Of a stretch of DNA of 64,000 nucleotides, positions 12,679-59,295 are shown piece after piece. Source of the DNA: Methanomicrobiaceae archaeon (GTDB lineage: Archaea; Halobacteriota; Methanomicrobia; Methanomicrobiales; Methanomicrobiaceae); the NCBI GenBank assembly GCA_016926855.1, contig JAFGNT010000004.1, positions 124,001 through 188,000 on the forward strand. Reading direction: 5' to 3'. Under the pieces are notes generated by a model. The model was not told where the DNA came from and searched no databases. It saw only the letters and a program-made list of their open reading frames with translations. The position numbers and the translations under genes are program-made. How positions within the stretch are numbered: position 1 is the first letter of the stretch; every line of letters begins with the position of its first letter.

Positions 12679-12871
12679 CCGATTTTCTCTTTTTGTTATC
12701 GTGCACCGGAGGGATAAAATAGGTTCTCGAAGAAAGTACGCGGTTTTCCGGGATGAAGGTGTTTTCTCATCCATGTGTCATCAAAAGAGTGAATGAGAAT
12801 CTTTCCTTTAACGTTTGCATTTTTTGGAATCGATTGAATGCAGAAGAGATATGAACGTGGTGTGTATAGAA

Positions 12872-12956
12872 CGCCGAGAGGGAGATTTGAACTCCCGTGG
12901 TGCCAAGCACCAGAGGCTTTCGAGGCCCCCGCCTTCCCGGGCTAGACTATCTCGGC
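12872..12956 (-). tRNA. tRNA-Ser (anticodon CGA)
   Basis: 85 bases on the minus strand. The acceptor stem GCCGAGA pairs with TCTCGGC, with discriminator G at 12872. The T arm is GGGAG-TTCAAAT-CTCCC. The anticodon stem GGGGC/GCCTC closes the loop CTCGAAA, giving anticodon CGA at 12920-12922. A long variable arm (TGGTGCTTGGCACCA) confirms the serine type. No CCA is encoded and no intron is seen. It would read UCG codons. Confidence 0.96.
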
Positions 12957-13140
12957 ACGTGAAAAAGGTGCGGATTAATGTTGCCCTTCCGGTGGTATAA
13001 TAGTAACGAAGTGTCCACCGCCGTTTGTGGTCCCCGCATAATAAGAGCGGGCGAACAGGGTAAAATTTCGGACTGGTCAATAGTCATATTAACGATGGGG
13101 TCGTCACTTCCTCTCGTTAAGAAAGGGGGAAGGGAAAGCC

Positions 13141-14124
13141 ATGGTGAGGAAATTTATTACCCCGGTGGTGGTGGTGAGCAGGTGCATCGAATTCGATCCC
13201 TGCCGCTGGAACGGCGACATGATCACGAGCCATATCGTGGCCCGGTTGAAGGAGTTCGTCGACTTCATCCCGGTCTGCCCGGAGGTGGAGGTAGGACTCG
13301 GCGTGCCGCGGGATACCCTCCGCATTGTCCAGAGCGAAGGGGCAGAGCATTTGGTGCAGCCCGCAACCGGACGGGACATCTCGGACGAGATGGCCCGTTT
13401 TGCCGGGTCTTTTCTCGGCACGCTTTTTCATGTCGACGGGTTTATCCTCAAGAACAAGTCGCCATCCTGCGGGATGAAGGAGGTTCGTGTATATGCAGGA
13501 CCGGACAGGGGGGGCAGTATTGGCAAGACGGACGGTTTCTTTGCCCGTTCGGTGCTCGAAATGTTTCCCGGAATACCCGTCGAGGACGAAGGAAGGCTCC
13601 GGAACATGCGTATCCGGGATCATTTCCTCACGAGGCTCTACACCTTCTCGGAGTTCCGGACTGTGCGGGAGTCGGGGAGTACGGATGCCCTTATCAGGTT
13701 CCATTCGGAGAACAAACTCCTGCTCCTGGCCCATAACCAGAGACGGGAACAGGAGATGGGCAGAACGGTCGCAAACCACGACCGGATCGCACCCACTCTG
13801 CTGGTGAAGCGCTACGGAGAGCAGCTCGCCGGTGCCCTCGCAACGGCACCACGGTACACCGCGAATGTCAACGTGCTGCTCCATGCCAGCGGTTATTTCC
13901 GGGACCGGCTGACCCACGAGGAGAAGGCATTCTTCCTTGACGCCGTGGAGAAATACCGGGAAGGCAGGGTCTCCATCTGCGCACCGAAAAACATCCTCAA
14001 ATCATGGATCGTGCGGTTCGGCGAAGAACGCCTCGATCACCAGACGTTCTTCGCCCCGTACCCGGACCGGCTGATGGAGCTCGATCCTGCGGATCGGGAT
14101 CGCGGCCGGGATCTCTGGACCTGA
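13141..14124 (+). CDS. DUF523-DUF1722 protein (YbgA/TudS-like)
   Basis: 327 residues. The N-terminal DUF523 half (1-150) has the three conserved Cys positions of TudS-type 4Fe-4S desulfidases: VVVSRCIEFDPCRWNG, FIPVCPEVEVGLGVPR and LKNKSPSCGM. TudS removes sulfur from thiouracil; whether this archaeal fusion does so is inference. The C-terminal DUF1722 half (about 190-310, HSENKLLLLAHNQ) is of unknown role. ATG 13141 follows a purine-rich AAGGGGGAAGGGAAA. A small beta-grasp gene follows on the same strand after 168 bases, which hints at sulfur transfer. Confidence 0.88.
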   Translation: MVRKFITPVVVVSRCIEFDPCRWNGDMITSHIVARLKEFVDFIPVCPEVEVGLGVPRDTLRIVQSEGAEHLVQPATGRDISDEMARFAGSFLGTLFHVDGFILKNKSPSCGMKEVRVYAGPDRGGSIGKTDGFFARSVLEMFPGIPVEDEGRLRNMRIRDHFLTRLYTFSEFRTVRESGSTDALIRFHSENKLLLLAHNQRREQEMGRTVANHDRIAPTLLVKRYGEQLAGALATAPRYTANVNVLLHASGYFRDRLTHEEKAFFLDAVEKYREGRVSICAPKNILKSWIVRFGEERLDHQTFFAPYPDRLMELDPADRDRGRDLWT

Positions 14125-14292
14125 GGGCCGCCCTGCCAATCGTCCATGGCCCCATCATCAACGAACCCGACGGACAGCAGTCCTGACCGGAGGGATAGGA
14201 CTGTCCCGGCGCGGAGAAAAACGTGGATATAGTGCGGGGCACCTTTTCATAGACGGGAGCACAGCATCGATTCGGGAGACGGGTGAGGGTGT

Positions 14293-14571
14293 ATGAGAGA
14301 CGAGGGCAACAGGACGGGTTTCGGGACAGGGTCGGAAGGAGATGACGACTGCGGCGGGCATCCCCCGGCCCTCTGCAGGATGACCGTTCTCCCCGGCGGT
14401 GACATAATCGAGTGGGCGGTCCGGCCCGGCGATACCTATGAGAGAGCCCTGCTCGCACACTGCATCGTTCCCGACACGGTGCTCATCTTTTTTAAGGGAA
14501 CGAGCCTCCCGGAAGACAAGCCGATAACGGAAACGGACGTCGAAATCGTGCTCACCTGTTCCCGCGGGTGA
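14293..14571 (+). CDS. Small beta-grasp (MoaD/ThiS/SAMP-like) protein
   Basis: 92 residues. After a Gly/Asp-rich, probably unstructured N-terminus, residues 29-92 match the archaeal ubiquitin-like sulfur-carrier pattern: RMTVLPGGDIIEWAVRPGDT, then IVPDTVLIFFKGTSLPED and EIVLTCSRG. The PDTVLIFF-KG segment is typical of ThiS/SAMP proteins. The C-terminus is SRG rather than the double Gly used for adenylation and thiocarboxylate formation, so activity as a carrier is uncertain. ATG 14293 follows GGTGAGGGTGT. It lies directly after the TudS-like gene. Confidence 0.65.
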   Translation: MRDEGNRTGFGTGSEGDDDCGGHPPALCRMTVLPGGDIIEWAVRPGDTYERALLAHCIVPDTVLIFFKGTSLPEDKPITETDVEIVLTCSRG

Positions 14572-14676: not shown

Positions 14677-16266
14677 TCACATCGCCGCGGGGGCCCGCGA
14701 CTGGGTGATCATCATGTCGTCGACGCGGACGAGCATGGTTGCCGCCTCTGCGCCGCTCTGCACTGCCTGGCGCTTGACGCGGAGCGGTTCGATGACGCCT
14801 GCCTTGTACATATCAGTTACCTTGCCGGTGAACACGTCGATCCCGGCGTATTTCTTGCCGGCAGAGTGGGCCTTCTTGAGGTCGACGAGAACGTCGATCG
14901 GGTCAAGGCCGGAGTTCTCGGCAAGAGTCCGGGGAATTGCATCAAAAATTCTGCCGAATGCCTCGATCGCGAGCTGAGTCCTCCCGCCGACCGTCGACGC
15001 GTAGTCACGGATCTGCATCGAGAGTTCTGTGTCGATTGCACCGCCCCCGACGATGTACTTCCCGTCTTCGAGCGCGTCCTGCACAACACGCTGTGCATCG
15101 TAGACAGCGCGCTCGAGCTCGTCGATCAGCACCTGGCTTCCTCCCTTCAGGAGAATGCTCACGGTCTTCGGATTTACGCAGCCGGATACCTTCGTGATCT
15201 TGATATCCTTCATTTCCTCGATCATGCTGGCGGTGCCGAGGACGCCGTTATCGATGTCGTCGGGCTTGTTGACAATCGTGCCGCCGACAGCCTTTGCGAG
15301 CGCCTTCATATCCGCTTCGGGGACATCCTGGATTGCAAAGATGCCCTGCTTCGCGAGGTAATACTGGACGGCATCAGAGATACCCTTCTGGCAGAAGACT
15401 GCGTTGGCACCCGTTGCACGGATTTTATCGGCGAGGCCTTTCAGCGCCCCCTGCTCCTGCTCGGAGAATGCATGCATCTGCTCCGAGGAGGTGATCTTGA
15501 TCTTTGCCTTCACCTGTGTCTTGGAAATCTCAAGCGCCTGTGCAAGGAGGGCGATTTTTGCGTTCGCCACCTTTTTCGGCATTGCCTCATCGACACGGGT
15601 CTTGTCGATAATGAAGCCGGGGACAAGTTCCGCATCTTCGATGTTATCGCCGATCATCGTCTTGATGTTGATGTCGTCCTCATCGACAAGATACGTGCCG
15701 TCCGCTCTCTTCTCGGCAACAGTTATCACCGCGTTGACCACGATCTCGCTGATACTGTCACGGACGCCCTCGATGGACTTGCCGGTGACTGCTGTCCTCG
15801 CCACTTTGAGCAGCAGATCGCGGTCATCGCCCTTTGAAATAATTGCCTGTGCGTCAAGGATTGCAAGCGCTTTCTGCATACCGAGCTTGTAACCGTTTGC
15901 GATAACGGTCGGGTGAATTTTCATCTCGAGCAGGCGTTCCGCCTCCTCCATGAGTTCACCGACAAGGATGCAGGCGGTGGTTGTGCCGTCGCCGACTTCA
16001 TCGTCCTGCGTCTCTGCGACCTCAACGACCATCTTTGCGCCGGGATGGGATACAGAAAGTTCGTGCAGGATCGTCGCCCCGTCGTTCGTGATGACGACGT
16101 CTCCTGACGGTGCGACCAGCATCTTATCCATCCCCCGGGGGCCGAGCGTTGTTCTCACTGCGCTCGCAATGGCTTTTGCTGCCATGATGTTGGAACGCTG
16201 GGCCTCCTGCCCGCGGGTGCGCTCCACGTTATCGCGTAATATAATAATGGGCTGTTGTCCAACCAT
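14677..16266 (-). CDS. ths: Thermosome subunit (group II chaperonin)
   Basis: 529 residues, full length. Group II chaperonins form eight- or nine-fold double rings that fold proteins with ATP in the cytosol. The nucleotide-binding motifs are present: [41 protein letters not shown] and the C-terminal [18 protein letters not shown]. The C-terminus is SRAPAAM, without the GGM repeats many thermosomes carry. The start ATG 16266 is preceded by GGAGG (16274-16278) and a strong TATA box. It is transcribed alone; other subunits may be elsewhere. Confidence 0.98.
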
Positions 16267-56656: not shown

Positions 56657-58360
56657 TCACCCGGATAAAAGGCGGATAAACCGCCGGAGTGCCCCGATAT
56701 CCCCGACCGCGATGATCGAATCGCCTGCATTCACCGTCTCCCCTTGTGCAGGCCTGATGATCGATCGTCCACCGCCCTCAATCCCTATCACCCGGACACT
56801 GCTTTTCCGTTCAATCCATCCTGCGGTTGCGGGAGTGGTTTTCATGAAATGTTTCATGACGACCTTCTGGCCGTTCGGAAGATCGAGAAGGACCTGCACG
56901 ATGTCGGAGAGCACGATGCCCGCGACCACCTGCCCTCCGATGGTGGGGAGAAGAGCGACATAGTCGGCACCTGCCCGGTAGAGTTTGTCGATGGAGGACG
57001 TTTCGTTGGCACGGGCGAGGATGCGGAGCTGCGGGTTCTGATTCCGGGCGATGAGGGTGGCAAAGATATTCACGTCGTCGTCGTTCACCGCCACGATGAA
57101 GAATCGGGCGTCTTCGATATGCGCCTCACGCAGGACGGGCTCATCTTCCGCGTTTCCCTGCACGAATGGTATCTCCTGTTCGTTCCTGTCGATCACGATG
57201 CAGTTGATCCCGGACTGTGTAAGTTCCCGGTATGCCGCCTTTCCCACATCTCCGTACCCTGCGATGATCGCCAGTTCCTCACCCGGCATATCGGCACGAA
57301 ACTCCTTTTCAATCACCTCGTTAAGGGCGTTTGGGCGGCCGAGGAGGAACAGCATTGTCGAGGTGTCGATGATGTCGTCCCCGGAGGGGTGCATGACGAA
57401 AGACCCCGCCTTCCAGAAGAAGAGCACATCAATGCCGTGCCGCTCGAAAAGAGCGAGTTCTCGGAGACTTTTCCCGCTCGAACGGCACCCCTCCATTATA
57501 GGCACTTTGATCAGTTTAAGGGACGATGCGGGAGAATCCTCGGAAATCTTCATCCGGTCAAGGCTGATTGCTTCGTATATCGTGTCAACGTCCGGCCGGA
57601 GTACCGCGTGCCGCCCGAGGATCTTGCCGGTCGAGTTCTTTGGCGAGAGCACATACTCTGCTCCTGCGTACCGGAGATACCTGTCGAACCCGAGGTCGTC
57701 CACGACGGCGATGATGCGTCCCGTGGTCTTTTCCCGGATGCCGAGAATGATCATCGCGGTCGTGCGTTCGTTTTCACCGATGATGATGTTCGTCGCGTTT
57801 TTGACATATGCATTGCTCCATGTTGCGGGATCGCTGTAATCCCCCCAGATAACATAGAGCTGTTTCCGGTACCGTCGGTACACCTCGCGGGCCTTTTCCT
57901 GGTTCTCTTCAACGATCACGATCGGCATGTCGATGATCATCAGGCTCTCGATCAATGCACGGGTCAGTTCCCCGTACCCGATGATGACGACATGCCCCTC
58001 CACTTCATACGGCGTGCGGTGCGGCGGCGTAGCCCGGAGAAGTGCGGTGATATAGGGGGCGAGCATCACCGGGACGATCATCAGCACCGTAAACACTCCC
58101 GTCACCATGATGAAGATGACGATGCCATACATGATCTGGCTTGAAAACGGGAGAAGATCCCCGTATCCGACGGTCGTGATGGTCTCGACAACAAAAAAGA
58201 GTGCCTCCGCCCAGGTCAATTGGCGGTGTTCAAGCAGCGGAAACGTGTAGTGAATCAGGATCGTGTAGACGATGACCTGGACTGCCAGGAGTCCGAAATA
58301 CACCCTGAGCCGCCGGTCCGGCACCAGGATGGCAAGGAGTCCCCGGTTGTTATCCGGCAT
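56657..58360 (-). CDS. Potassium channel with two RCK (TrkA) units
   Basis: 567 residues. Two membrane helices (YFGLLAVQVIVYTILIHY and MYGIVIFIMVTGVFTVLMIV) flank a pore with selectivity filter TTVGYGD. The cytosolic part holds two TrkA-N (RCK) domains, HVVIIGYGELTRALIESL and LAIIAGYGDVGKAAYREL, each followed by a TrkA-C domain; the last ends GETVNAGDSIIAVGDIGALR. This resembles MthK but with a doubled RCK, so each subunit could supply half of the gating ring on its own. GAGGTGAGACAGG precedes ATG 58360, which is inside the end of the tRNA thiolase gene (11-base overlap). Confidence 0.95.
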   Translation of the reverse strand: MPDNNRGLLAILVPDRRLRVYFGLLAVQVIVYTILIHYTFPLLEHRQLTWAEALFFVVETITTVGYGDLLPFSSQIMYGIVIFIMVTGVFTVLMIVPVMLAPYITALLRATPPHRTPYEVEGHVVIIGYGELTRALIESLMIIDMPIVIVEENQEKAREVYRRYRKQLYVIWGDYSDPATWSNAYVKNATNIIIGENERTTAMIILGIREKTTGRIIAVVDDLGFDRYLRYAGAEYVLSPKNSTGKILGRHAVLRPDVDTIYEAISLDRMKISEDSPASSLKLIKVPIMEGCRSSGKSLRELALFERHGIDVLFFWKAGSFVMHPSGDDIIDTSTMLFLLGRPNALNEVIEKEFRADMPGEELAIIAGYGDVGKAAYRELTQSGINCIVIDRNEQEIPFVQGNAEDEPVLREAHIEDARFFIVAVNDDDVNIFATLIARNQNPQLRILARANETSSIDKLYRAGADYVALLPTIGGQVVAGIVLSDIVQVLLDLPNGQKVVMKHFMKTTPATAGWIERKSSVRVIGIEGGGRSIIRPAQGETVNAGDSIIAVGDIGALRRFIRLLSG

Positions 58361-59246
58361 CCTGTCTCACCTCTGCGAGGATCCGGCAGGTCTGGCATGT
58401 ACCCCGGCAGGGATCCCCGCATTCGGGGCAGATACCGGCTGCCTCCGGGCTGCCTGCGGCCCGCTTCGGCAGTTCGTCACCCAGGTTGACGAGGGCGAAT
58501 TTTGTGGCGGGATGGCGGTAGCTGTAGTTGTTGAGCATGGTTCTCACGTCTGCCCGGAGTGCGTTGTGCGAATAGGGGCACCCGCGTTCAAGGAATCCGT
58601 GTACGTGGAGATGGGCGTAGAGCGCCACTTCCCGCTCCGGAAGGTTCTGGAACGGGCGGATCCGGGGGATAAACCCTTCCGCCGGCCCTTCCTGATGCAC
58701 AAGCCGGCCGACGTCTCCCCGGAGCACGTTCATCAGCACGGACTGTGCATCATCATCGAGATTGAAGCCGAATGCAATCCGGGTGATCCCCTCGTTGCGG
58801 GCAATTCTGTTCATGAGCGACCGGCGGAGGACCCCGCAATACGAGCAGGAGAGGCGGTCTCCCTTCCGCCTGACGATCTCATCGAGGGTGATGCCGTATT
58901 CCCCGGAGAATGAGGCGGTGTGGCATGGAACACCCATGGATTCGGCAATCGATCGCACCATGCCGGGATCGCGGTAGCCGCCGATGCCCTCGTCAATGGT
59001 AATGGCGCTGATCTCCACGTCTGGTCGATCCCGAAAGAGGGTGGTGAGAAAATACAGGAGAGCACTGCTGTCTTTTCCGCCGCTGAGTGCAACGCCAATC
59101 CGATCGCCCCTCTCGATCCACCGGTTCTTCCGGATCACCTTTTTTGCCCGCCCCTCAAAATCGGCGATAAAATGCTGCCTGCAGAGGTGCATCCCGGAGT
59201 ACCGCTGGAAAATAATGGCATCCCGATGGCACTTGCTACATTTCAT
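58350..59246 (-). CDS. ncs6: tRNA 2-thiolation protein (Ncs6/TtuA family)
   Basis: 298 residues from ATG 59246. The PP-loop ALSGGKDSSALLYF adenylates the tRNA uridine. The N-terminal zinc finger is CSKCHRDAIIFQR...LCRQHF, and the C-terminal one is CPECGDPCRGTCQTC. SCSYCGVLRRS and RGCPYSHNAL supply the conserved Cys, which hold a 4Fe-4S cluster in TtuA-type enzymes. It thiolates U34 or U54 of tRNA using sulfur from a small carrier; a beta-grasp candidate is encoded at 14293. It overlaps the K+ channel gene by 11 bases and diverges from rio2. Confidence 0.94.
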   Translation of the reverse strand: MKCSKCHRDAIIFQRYSGMHLCRQHFIADFEGRAKKVIRKNRWIERGDRIGVALSGGKDSSALLYFLTTLFRDRPDVEISAITIDEGIGGYRDPGMVRSIAESMGVPCHTASFSGEYGITLDEIVRRKGDRLSCSYCGVLRRSLMNRIARNEGITRIAFGFNLDDDAQSVLMNVLRGDVGRLVHQEGPAEGFIPRIRPFQNLPEREVALYAHLHVHGFLERGCPYSHNALRADVRTMLNNYSYRHPATKFALVNLGDELPKRAAGSPEAAGICPECGDPCRGTCQTCRILAEVRQDAG

Positions 59247-59295
59247 GCTTCCCAATCAACTTATATCATCCCCCCTGATAAATGTGTAGAGTTTT

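Follow-up and report, generated by a model that had tools for sequence, protein, structure and literature searches.

The archaeal ubiquitin-like protein (Ubl) SAMP2 ends in Gly-Gly. Archaeal Ubls were sought by a Gly-Gly or Cys-Cys end, and urm1 homologues of Sulfolobales were described near a thermosome gene in opposite orientation (PMC2948915). In Saccharolobus islandicus the thermosome subunits are reported as the most urmylated proteins, carrying 31 and 35 sites (PMC12625751), and Cct2 of Haloferax is sampylated (PMC5587910); UFM1 ends in Val-Gly, yet is activated (PMC12355090). Among the desulfidases, RudS consists of a TudS domain fused to DUF1722 and takes the sulfur of 4-thiouridine (s4U) off tRNA, whereby DUF1722 helps to bind the tRNA, and the s4U writer ThiI is present in 637 of 884 genomes with RudS (PMC11417400). 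In the TudS chemistry set out in PMC10611767 the sulfur moves to the free iron of the cluster, an account from which a protein acceptor is absent.

Genes resembling both groups are neighbours in the draft genome of a Methanomicrobiaceae archaeon (G000; 1.98 Mb, 35 contigs, 89% complete), from which we analysed one stretch of 64,000 nucleotides, hereafter the window. The more interesting of the two is the Ubl gene, whose family with its Arg-Gly end is a new variant among SAMP2-type Ubls. The following features of the window are relevant here:

12871-12957, minus strand: tRNA-Ser(CGA), located by ARAGORN; in relatives it usually adjoins the Ubl gene in divergent orientation.
12996-13009, plus strand: 14-base motif TATAATNNTATCGA, with one mismatch here; in most of the relatives compared it lies at the Ubl coding match or shortly before it.
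13141-14124, plus strand: DUF523-DUF1722 protein with RudS architecture, a predicted [4Fe-4S] tRNA 4-thiouridine desulfidase, from Pfam, the TudS alignment and key residues.
14293-14571, plus strand: SAMP2/TtuB-like beta-grasp protein (the Ubl), from profile matches and an AlphaFold2 model.
14560-14568, plus strand: C-terminal Ser-Arg-Gly (SRG) codons of the Ubl, in place of Gly-Gly; SRG in 60 of 60 orthologues.
14677-16266, minus strand: subunit of the thermosome, a group II chaperonin; as a rule its gene lies next to the Ubl gene and convergent with it.
58350-59255, minus strand: NcsA/TtuA-type tRNA thiolase with TtuA_LIM_N and PP-loop domains.

The desulfidase gene encodes 327 aa and matches Pfam 2-thiour_desulf (DUF523; residues 10-150, E 6.6e-36), followed in the same chain by DUF1722 (residues 192-308, E 7e-34), both well over cut-off. 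The TudS structure PDB 6z92 aligns with it (E 2.7e-6), whereby Cys15, Cys46 and Cys110 fall on the cluster ligand positions of TudS/RudS and Glu48, Ser107, Ser109 and Arg57 on the catalytic positions, the roles of which are described in PMC11417400 and PMC10611767. The preliminary description of this DNA, which had recognised a DUF523-DUF1722 protein with the three Cys of TudS-type enzymes, is thereby borne out. Since the TudS domain and DUF1722 are joined in one chain, the protein is by its sequence of the RudS type rather than a stand-alone TudS, and as such a further member of an already known family. By homology, its three-Cys [4Fe-4S] domain together with DUF1722 would remove s4U sulfur from tRNA without a protein carrier.

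It is unlikely that the enzyme acts on free thiouracil or 4-thio-UMP, as stand-alone TudS does, rather than on tRNA. The catalytic domain is the same as in TudS, and a full-length ThiI was not found in the 89% complete G000, which yielded only weak PP-loop matches; against this stand DUF1722 itself, from which RudS derives its tRNA activity (PMC11417400), and the spread of ThiI in the order Methanomicrobiales, where 60 of 61 genomes give a match, weak only in G000 and G074 and strong in most. As assembled, G000 carries a RudS-type s4U eraser without a detected full-length ThiI, though ThiI is common in the order.

Two further observations concern the desulfidase family. Of the 31 DUF523-DUF1722 rows compared, two of which are the window (its own row and L032), sixteen carry SPTSG in place of SPSCG (L035, L039-L045, L047, L049-L051, L053, L059-L061), with Ser for the third cluster Cys and Thr for a catalytic Ser; they may represent a sub-family in which the cluster ligand or the role is a different one. 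Desulfidase matches were obtained in 35 genomes; in G012, G018 and G027, all of genus g6, only 38-80 residues were matched, which suggests a truncated gene, G018 being a one-contig genome.

The preliminary description had proposed that the two neighbours work as a pair, the desulfidase passing sulfur to the Ubl as carrier, and conservation of the pair gives a divided answer. Among 60 genomes, the own genome included and Ubl matches taken at E 1e-15 or better, 29 have both genes, 12 only the Ubl, 6 only the desulfidase and 13 neither (Fisher p 0.006), and without the three short matches of genus g6 the counts become 26, 15, 6 and 13 (p 0.03), kinship among the genomes inflating both p values. 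Co-occurrence is raised only moderately, and adjacency was seen in the window's genome alone. The two genes share one contig in 15 of the 29 genomes and lie on different contigs in 14, where the distance is unreadable. Start to start they are 1.15 kb apart in the window's genome and at least 10.2 kb apart in the other 14 genomes with a shared contig (for instance G018 10.2, G023 10.6, G006 14.4, G049 17.8 and G027 21.3 kb), which leaves a single genome with a distance below 10 kb. The 15-20 kb examined in G006, G018 and G023 gave no match to any further window ORF (at least 80 aa, bases 1-32000).

We also compared 31 named Ubl loci of 3.1-10.2 kb each, taken from genomes labelled mostly as Methanomicrobiales, Methanoregulaceae, Methanolinea, Methanoregula or Methanoculleus, and the desulfidase was not found in any of them. 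In all 31, the Ubl gene is flanked by a divergent tRNA-Ser(CGA), which lies within 85 bp upstream in 30 loci and at 1.8 kb in one, and by a convergent thermosome gene, which lies within 811 bp in 29 loci and at 1.8 kb in two. In the wider set, tRNA-Ser(CGA) was seen near the Ubl gene in 48 of 60 genomes and the thermosome gene in 46 of 60, mostly within short flanks; the counts are higher in the named set because it consists of closer relatives only, and the two sets overlap.

The window departs from this arrangement in the gap between tRNA-Ser and the Ubl gene. In 24 of the 31 named relatives the 14-base motif, with up to two mismatches, stands at the Ubl coding match or a short way before it, whereas in the window it is still found beside tRNA-Ser, 1.28 kb from the Ubl start, which places the break just after the motif. 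In G001, the one other genome of the genus available for comparison, the same gap is filled by an inverted gene (L127:333-1793, minus strand) that we take to encode a TrkH-like potassium transporter. The gap beside tRNA-Ser has thus received different genes in this genus, so that the adjacency of desulfidase and Ubl says nothing on function. The gap may be an insertion site. The desulfidase shares 79-81% identity with the protein of G006 and 52-53% with that of the congener, which suggests a separate history for this gene.

Taken together, the adjacency counts, the different insert of the congener and the motif left behind led us to reject a functional pair, and the two genes are most likely neighbours by accident. 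The sulfur relay built on the pair, in which sulfur taken by the desulfidase from thiolated bases would form a thiocarboxylate on the Ubl, to be supplied in turn to the NcsA/TtuA thiolase at 58350-59255, receives practically no credence from us. In its favour, both families are concerned with tRNA sulfur, Thermus has a TtuB-TtuA pair (5ztb and 5gha matches) and the two genes co-occur mildly; yet the adjacency is seen in this genome only, the congener has another insert, the Ubl is without a diglycine, 6 of 60 genomes have the desulfidase without the Ubl and 12 of 60 the reverse, and Methanococcus NcsA works with inorganic sulfide in vitro (PMC10067955). For direct passage to the thiolase, which had been placed at 58350-59246 and called Ncs6/TtuA, we found nothing in support; its gene lies 44 kb away on the minus strand.

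The Ubl gene itself encodes 92 aa and ends in Cys-Ser-Arg-Gly-stop, in accordance with the ThiS/SAMP-like gene ending in SRG that had been described. It stays below the Pfam and NCBIfam cut-offs for SAMP2 (PF21965: E 7.4e-5, 23.5 bits, cut-off 27), while the family profile matches the solved SAMP2 (4hrs) with E 1.6e-7, its best PDB relative by sequence profile, and TtuB (5ztb) weakly with E 0.015. The AlphaFold2 model has a mean pLDDT of 75.9, with blocks of 81-87 over residues 31-90, and shows the beta-beta-alpha-beta-beta order of a beta-grasp domain. It matches ubiquitin in Foldseek (E from 1.8e-4) and TtuB in VIA (Z 9.5, 1.5 A over 63 residues); the top VIA match is the Ras-binding domain of Raf (Z 9.6), tied with TtuB, and SAMP2 is not among the VIA matches listed. 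The anticipated beta-grasp fold is thus predicted for 14293-14571, but with the Raf domain level with TtuB such a match means beta-grasp and says nothing on function. The conserved core starts at about codon 27 (14371), preceded by an N-terminal extension of about 25 residues that is missing from most relatives, although the congener G001 also has one.

Strong matches to the Ubl (E 5.8e-17 or better) were obtained in 75 of 150 genomes of the order, and orthologues occur in six of its families. Over 224 non-independent pairs the median dN/dS is 0.19 and the highest 0.42, showing purifying selection, and with orthologues in six families the Ubl is therefore a real gene. That it is a decaying relic is highly improbable: broken or shortened copies do occur in a few genomes (L113, L145, L148, L215) and strong matches are absent from the other 75 genomes of the order, for example those of f6, but the purifying selection, the strong matches in half of the genomes and the fixed C-terminus oppose it. 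At the family level we rejected decay on the basis of dN/dS and codon variety, few copies being broken. A viral origin was likewise considered; a viral-contig scan with one orthologue, the reach of which is limited to close relatives, confirmed no relative. A literature search covering few subscription journals yielded no description of an SRG Ubl family.

Among the 75 strongly matching genomes, the C-terminus was read in 60, and every one of these 60 intact orthologues ends in SRG; the remainder consists of 14 genomes outside the count and of G138, in which the frame runs into N and the gene is broken or masked. The C-terminal Gly, the conservation of which had been in question, is hence kept in relatives. 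Across the 60, the Arg is encoded by all six of its codons and the Gly by all four, a variety that makes a constraint at the DNA level unlikely. SRG also ends 29 of the 31 Ubls of the named set, which has genomes in common with the first; L221 ends in SMG, and L215 is frameshifted or broken. The Arg-Gly end is therefore a family trait, almost without exception in Methanomicrobiales. Among the irregular copies, L145 is broken, L148 runs into N and L113 is a second copy in G013 without the N-terminal part.

Outside the order the picture is different. Twelve of 16 homologues from other families of the phylum (L129-L144, chosen among the best-scoring ones) end in GG (ten SGG, one LGG, one KGG), the exceptions being L140 (SRG), L136 (SSG), L139 (SGGRG) and L130 (SGGNFR). 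All six paralogues read within the order (L117-L120, L146, L147) end in HGG, and an E1 gene is found at up to about 4 kb from four of them and at about 8 kb from the other two. In a coarse tree of 82 short sequences and 68 columns, the SRG rows of the order form one side of a branch with support 100/98, and another branch groups the paralogues with support 100/96. The change from diglycine to Arg-Gly in this SAMP2-type family of Methanomicrobiales thus probably happened once. L140 (2044-2295, minus strand; G311, family f8) stands apart on a long branch and its placement is unsure; with it, the SRG label needs two changes across the tree, and its end is perhaps of a second origin. Near two of the 16 GG-ended and other homologues looked at, L137 and L138, both GG-ended SAMP2-like genes of two other families, tRNA-Ser(CGA) is found as well. 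The pairing of tRNA-Ser with the Ubl gene may thus predate the change to Arg-Gly, and these two loci hint at a possible descent of the SRG gene, at its present position, from a GG-ended one.

Whether a Ubl with such an end is activated was approached through the distribution of the activating enzyme, for which 74 of the 75 strongly Ubl-matching genomes were searched with PF00899. E1 lies over the cut-off in 64 of the 74 and was not found above it in ten (G003, G010, G016, G008, G012, G025, G050, G120, G129, G083). Six of these ten genomes are at least 94% complete, G003 being a single contig of 99% completeness, and E1 is absent from all three genomes of genus g3 searched; the other E1-less cases have some E1-bearing congeners, and assembly gaps are possible for individual genomes. 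Intact SRG ends were nonetheless read in E1-less G003, G016, G008, G012 and G050, so that, in some cells at least, activation by a known E1 is not a requirement for the SRG Ubl. G003, G008, G012 and G050, the four E1-less genomes searched for ThiS, gave no ThiS match either and have kept JAMM proteases, which occur in 60 of 61 genomes of the order. With one of the own-genome E1 matches as query, no E1 was found in any of 91 SRG Ubl loci (60 plus the 31 named ones, partly of the same genomes). The own genome has three PF00899 matches, each beside its own ThiS gene; one of them (G000:C27:146364-147035, plus strand) contains an in-frame TAA stop.

The main rival explanation is that the Arg-Gly Ubl is still activated, by the MoeB/ThiF of its own genome or an unrecognised E1, much as UBA5 activates UFM1, and becomes conjugated to proteins or thiocarboxylated. 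With E1 in 64 of 74 orthologue-bearing genomes and JAMM proteases throughout the order, conjugation would be possible in most genomes, which counts against a model of binding alone; the terminal Gly is retained, UFM1 provides a precedent (PMC12355090) and archaeal thermosomes are Ubl targets (PMC12625751, PMC5587910). We nevertheless consider this rival rather doubtful, as the intact SRG end is kept in E1-less genomes, each E1 gene of the own genome sits beside a ThiS gene, no E1 was found in the 91 SRG loci and the changed end has stayed changed across the order.

On balance we favour, as the more probable explanation, two unrelated genes: a RudS-type desulfidase and an Arg-Gly Ubl that most likely acts by non-covalent binding. 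The desulfidase has moved into the gap that separates tRNA-Ser(CGA) from the Ubl gene, as comparison with relatives shows. In the SAMP2-type family of the Ubl the diglycine end would have become Arg-Gly, an end that is conserved with hardly any exception. A penultimate Arg would be expected to suit E1 poorly, and since the Ubl is kept intact in genomes in which E1 and, in the four tested for it, ThiS were not found, non-covalent binding through the beta-grasp face and the fixed Ser-Arg-Gly tail appears likeliest. The earlier suggestion that the unusual single terminal Gly may mean a protein-binding rather than a thiocarboxylate role fits these data.

A candidate for the bound partner is offered by the neighbourhood. 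Because the convergent thermosome gene adjoins the Ubl gene, the thermosome is perhaps the first candidate, by analogy with the archaeal cases introduced above, and that such a vicinity recurs in two archaeal groups far removed from each other suggests a link to the chaperonin. We therefore put forward, tentatively and as possible rather than probable, an E1-independent, non-conjugated Ubl whose near-invariant SRG tail would itself serve as a binding signal and whose likely client or regulator would be the chaperonin of the adjacent gene. The archaeal thermosome-Ubl cases known, urmylation and sampylation, are however covalent, and the thermosome adjacency may be plain synteny. Fourteen of 60 genomes, including every one read from genera g3, g4, g6 and g7, showed no thermosome gene within the flanks examined, and E1-less G003 is one of those without it there.

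Some of these cells appear to have lost both E1 and ThiS-type Ubls and, on this reading, would have kept a Ubl that works by binding alone. An Arg-Gly family retained where E1 was not found offers a natural test by which Ubl functions dependent on activation could be told from those for which binding suffices, and the E1-less genomes make the question testable without a mutant, as any conjugate detected there would imply an unknown activating enzyme.

Compared with described systems, the desulfidase closely resembles RudS, sharing the order of the two domains, the three cluster Cys and the catalytic residues, Glu48, Ser107, Ser109 and Arg57 corresponding to Glu51, Ser111, Ser113 and Arg60 of RudS_KT. 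It differs in being archaeal, in carrying Trp at the equivalent of Tyr25 and in belonging to a genome (89% complete draft) in which a full-length s4U writer ThiI was not detected. The Ubl has in common with SAMP2 of Haloferax (PDB 4hrs, 2l32) the predicted beta-grasp fold, but ends in SRG instead of GG, and E1 was not found in some of its carriers. TtuB, the sulfur carrier of TtuA in Thermus (5ztb, 5gha), superposes closely on the Ubl model; TtuB is thiocarboxylated (PMC10067955), whereas the Ubl is known here from its sequence and predicted fold. The Sulfolobales Urm1 shares the position of its gene near an oppositely oriented thermosome gene (PMC2948915), but has two C-terminal Gly and is widely conjugated, to the thermosome among others (PMC12625751).

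Two eukaryotic proteins offer parallels to the end of the Ubl. UFM1 likewise has a single terminal Gly after a non-Gly residue (PMC12355090), but is eukaryotic, reads Val-Gly and has its own E1 and E2. The complex of ubiquitin G75R with KLHDC3 (9d1y), which is among the PDB matches of the Ubl model, presents the same change from GG to RG, and there the tail is read as a C-terminal binding signal (PMC11568203); G75R ubiquitin is an engineered human protein and thus an analogy only, but it illustrates how an Arg-Gly tail could be used for binding.
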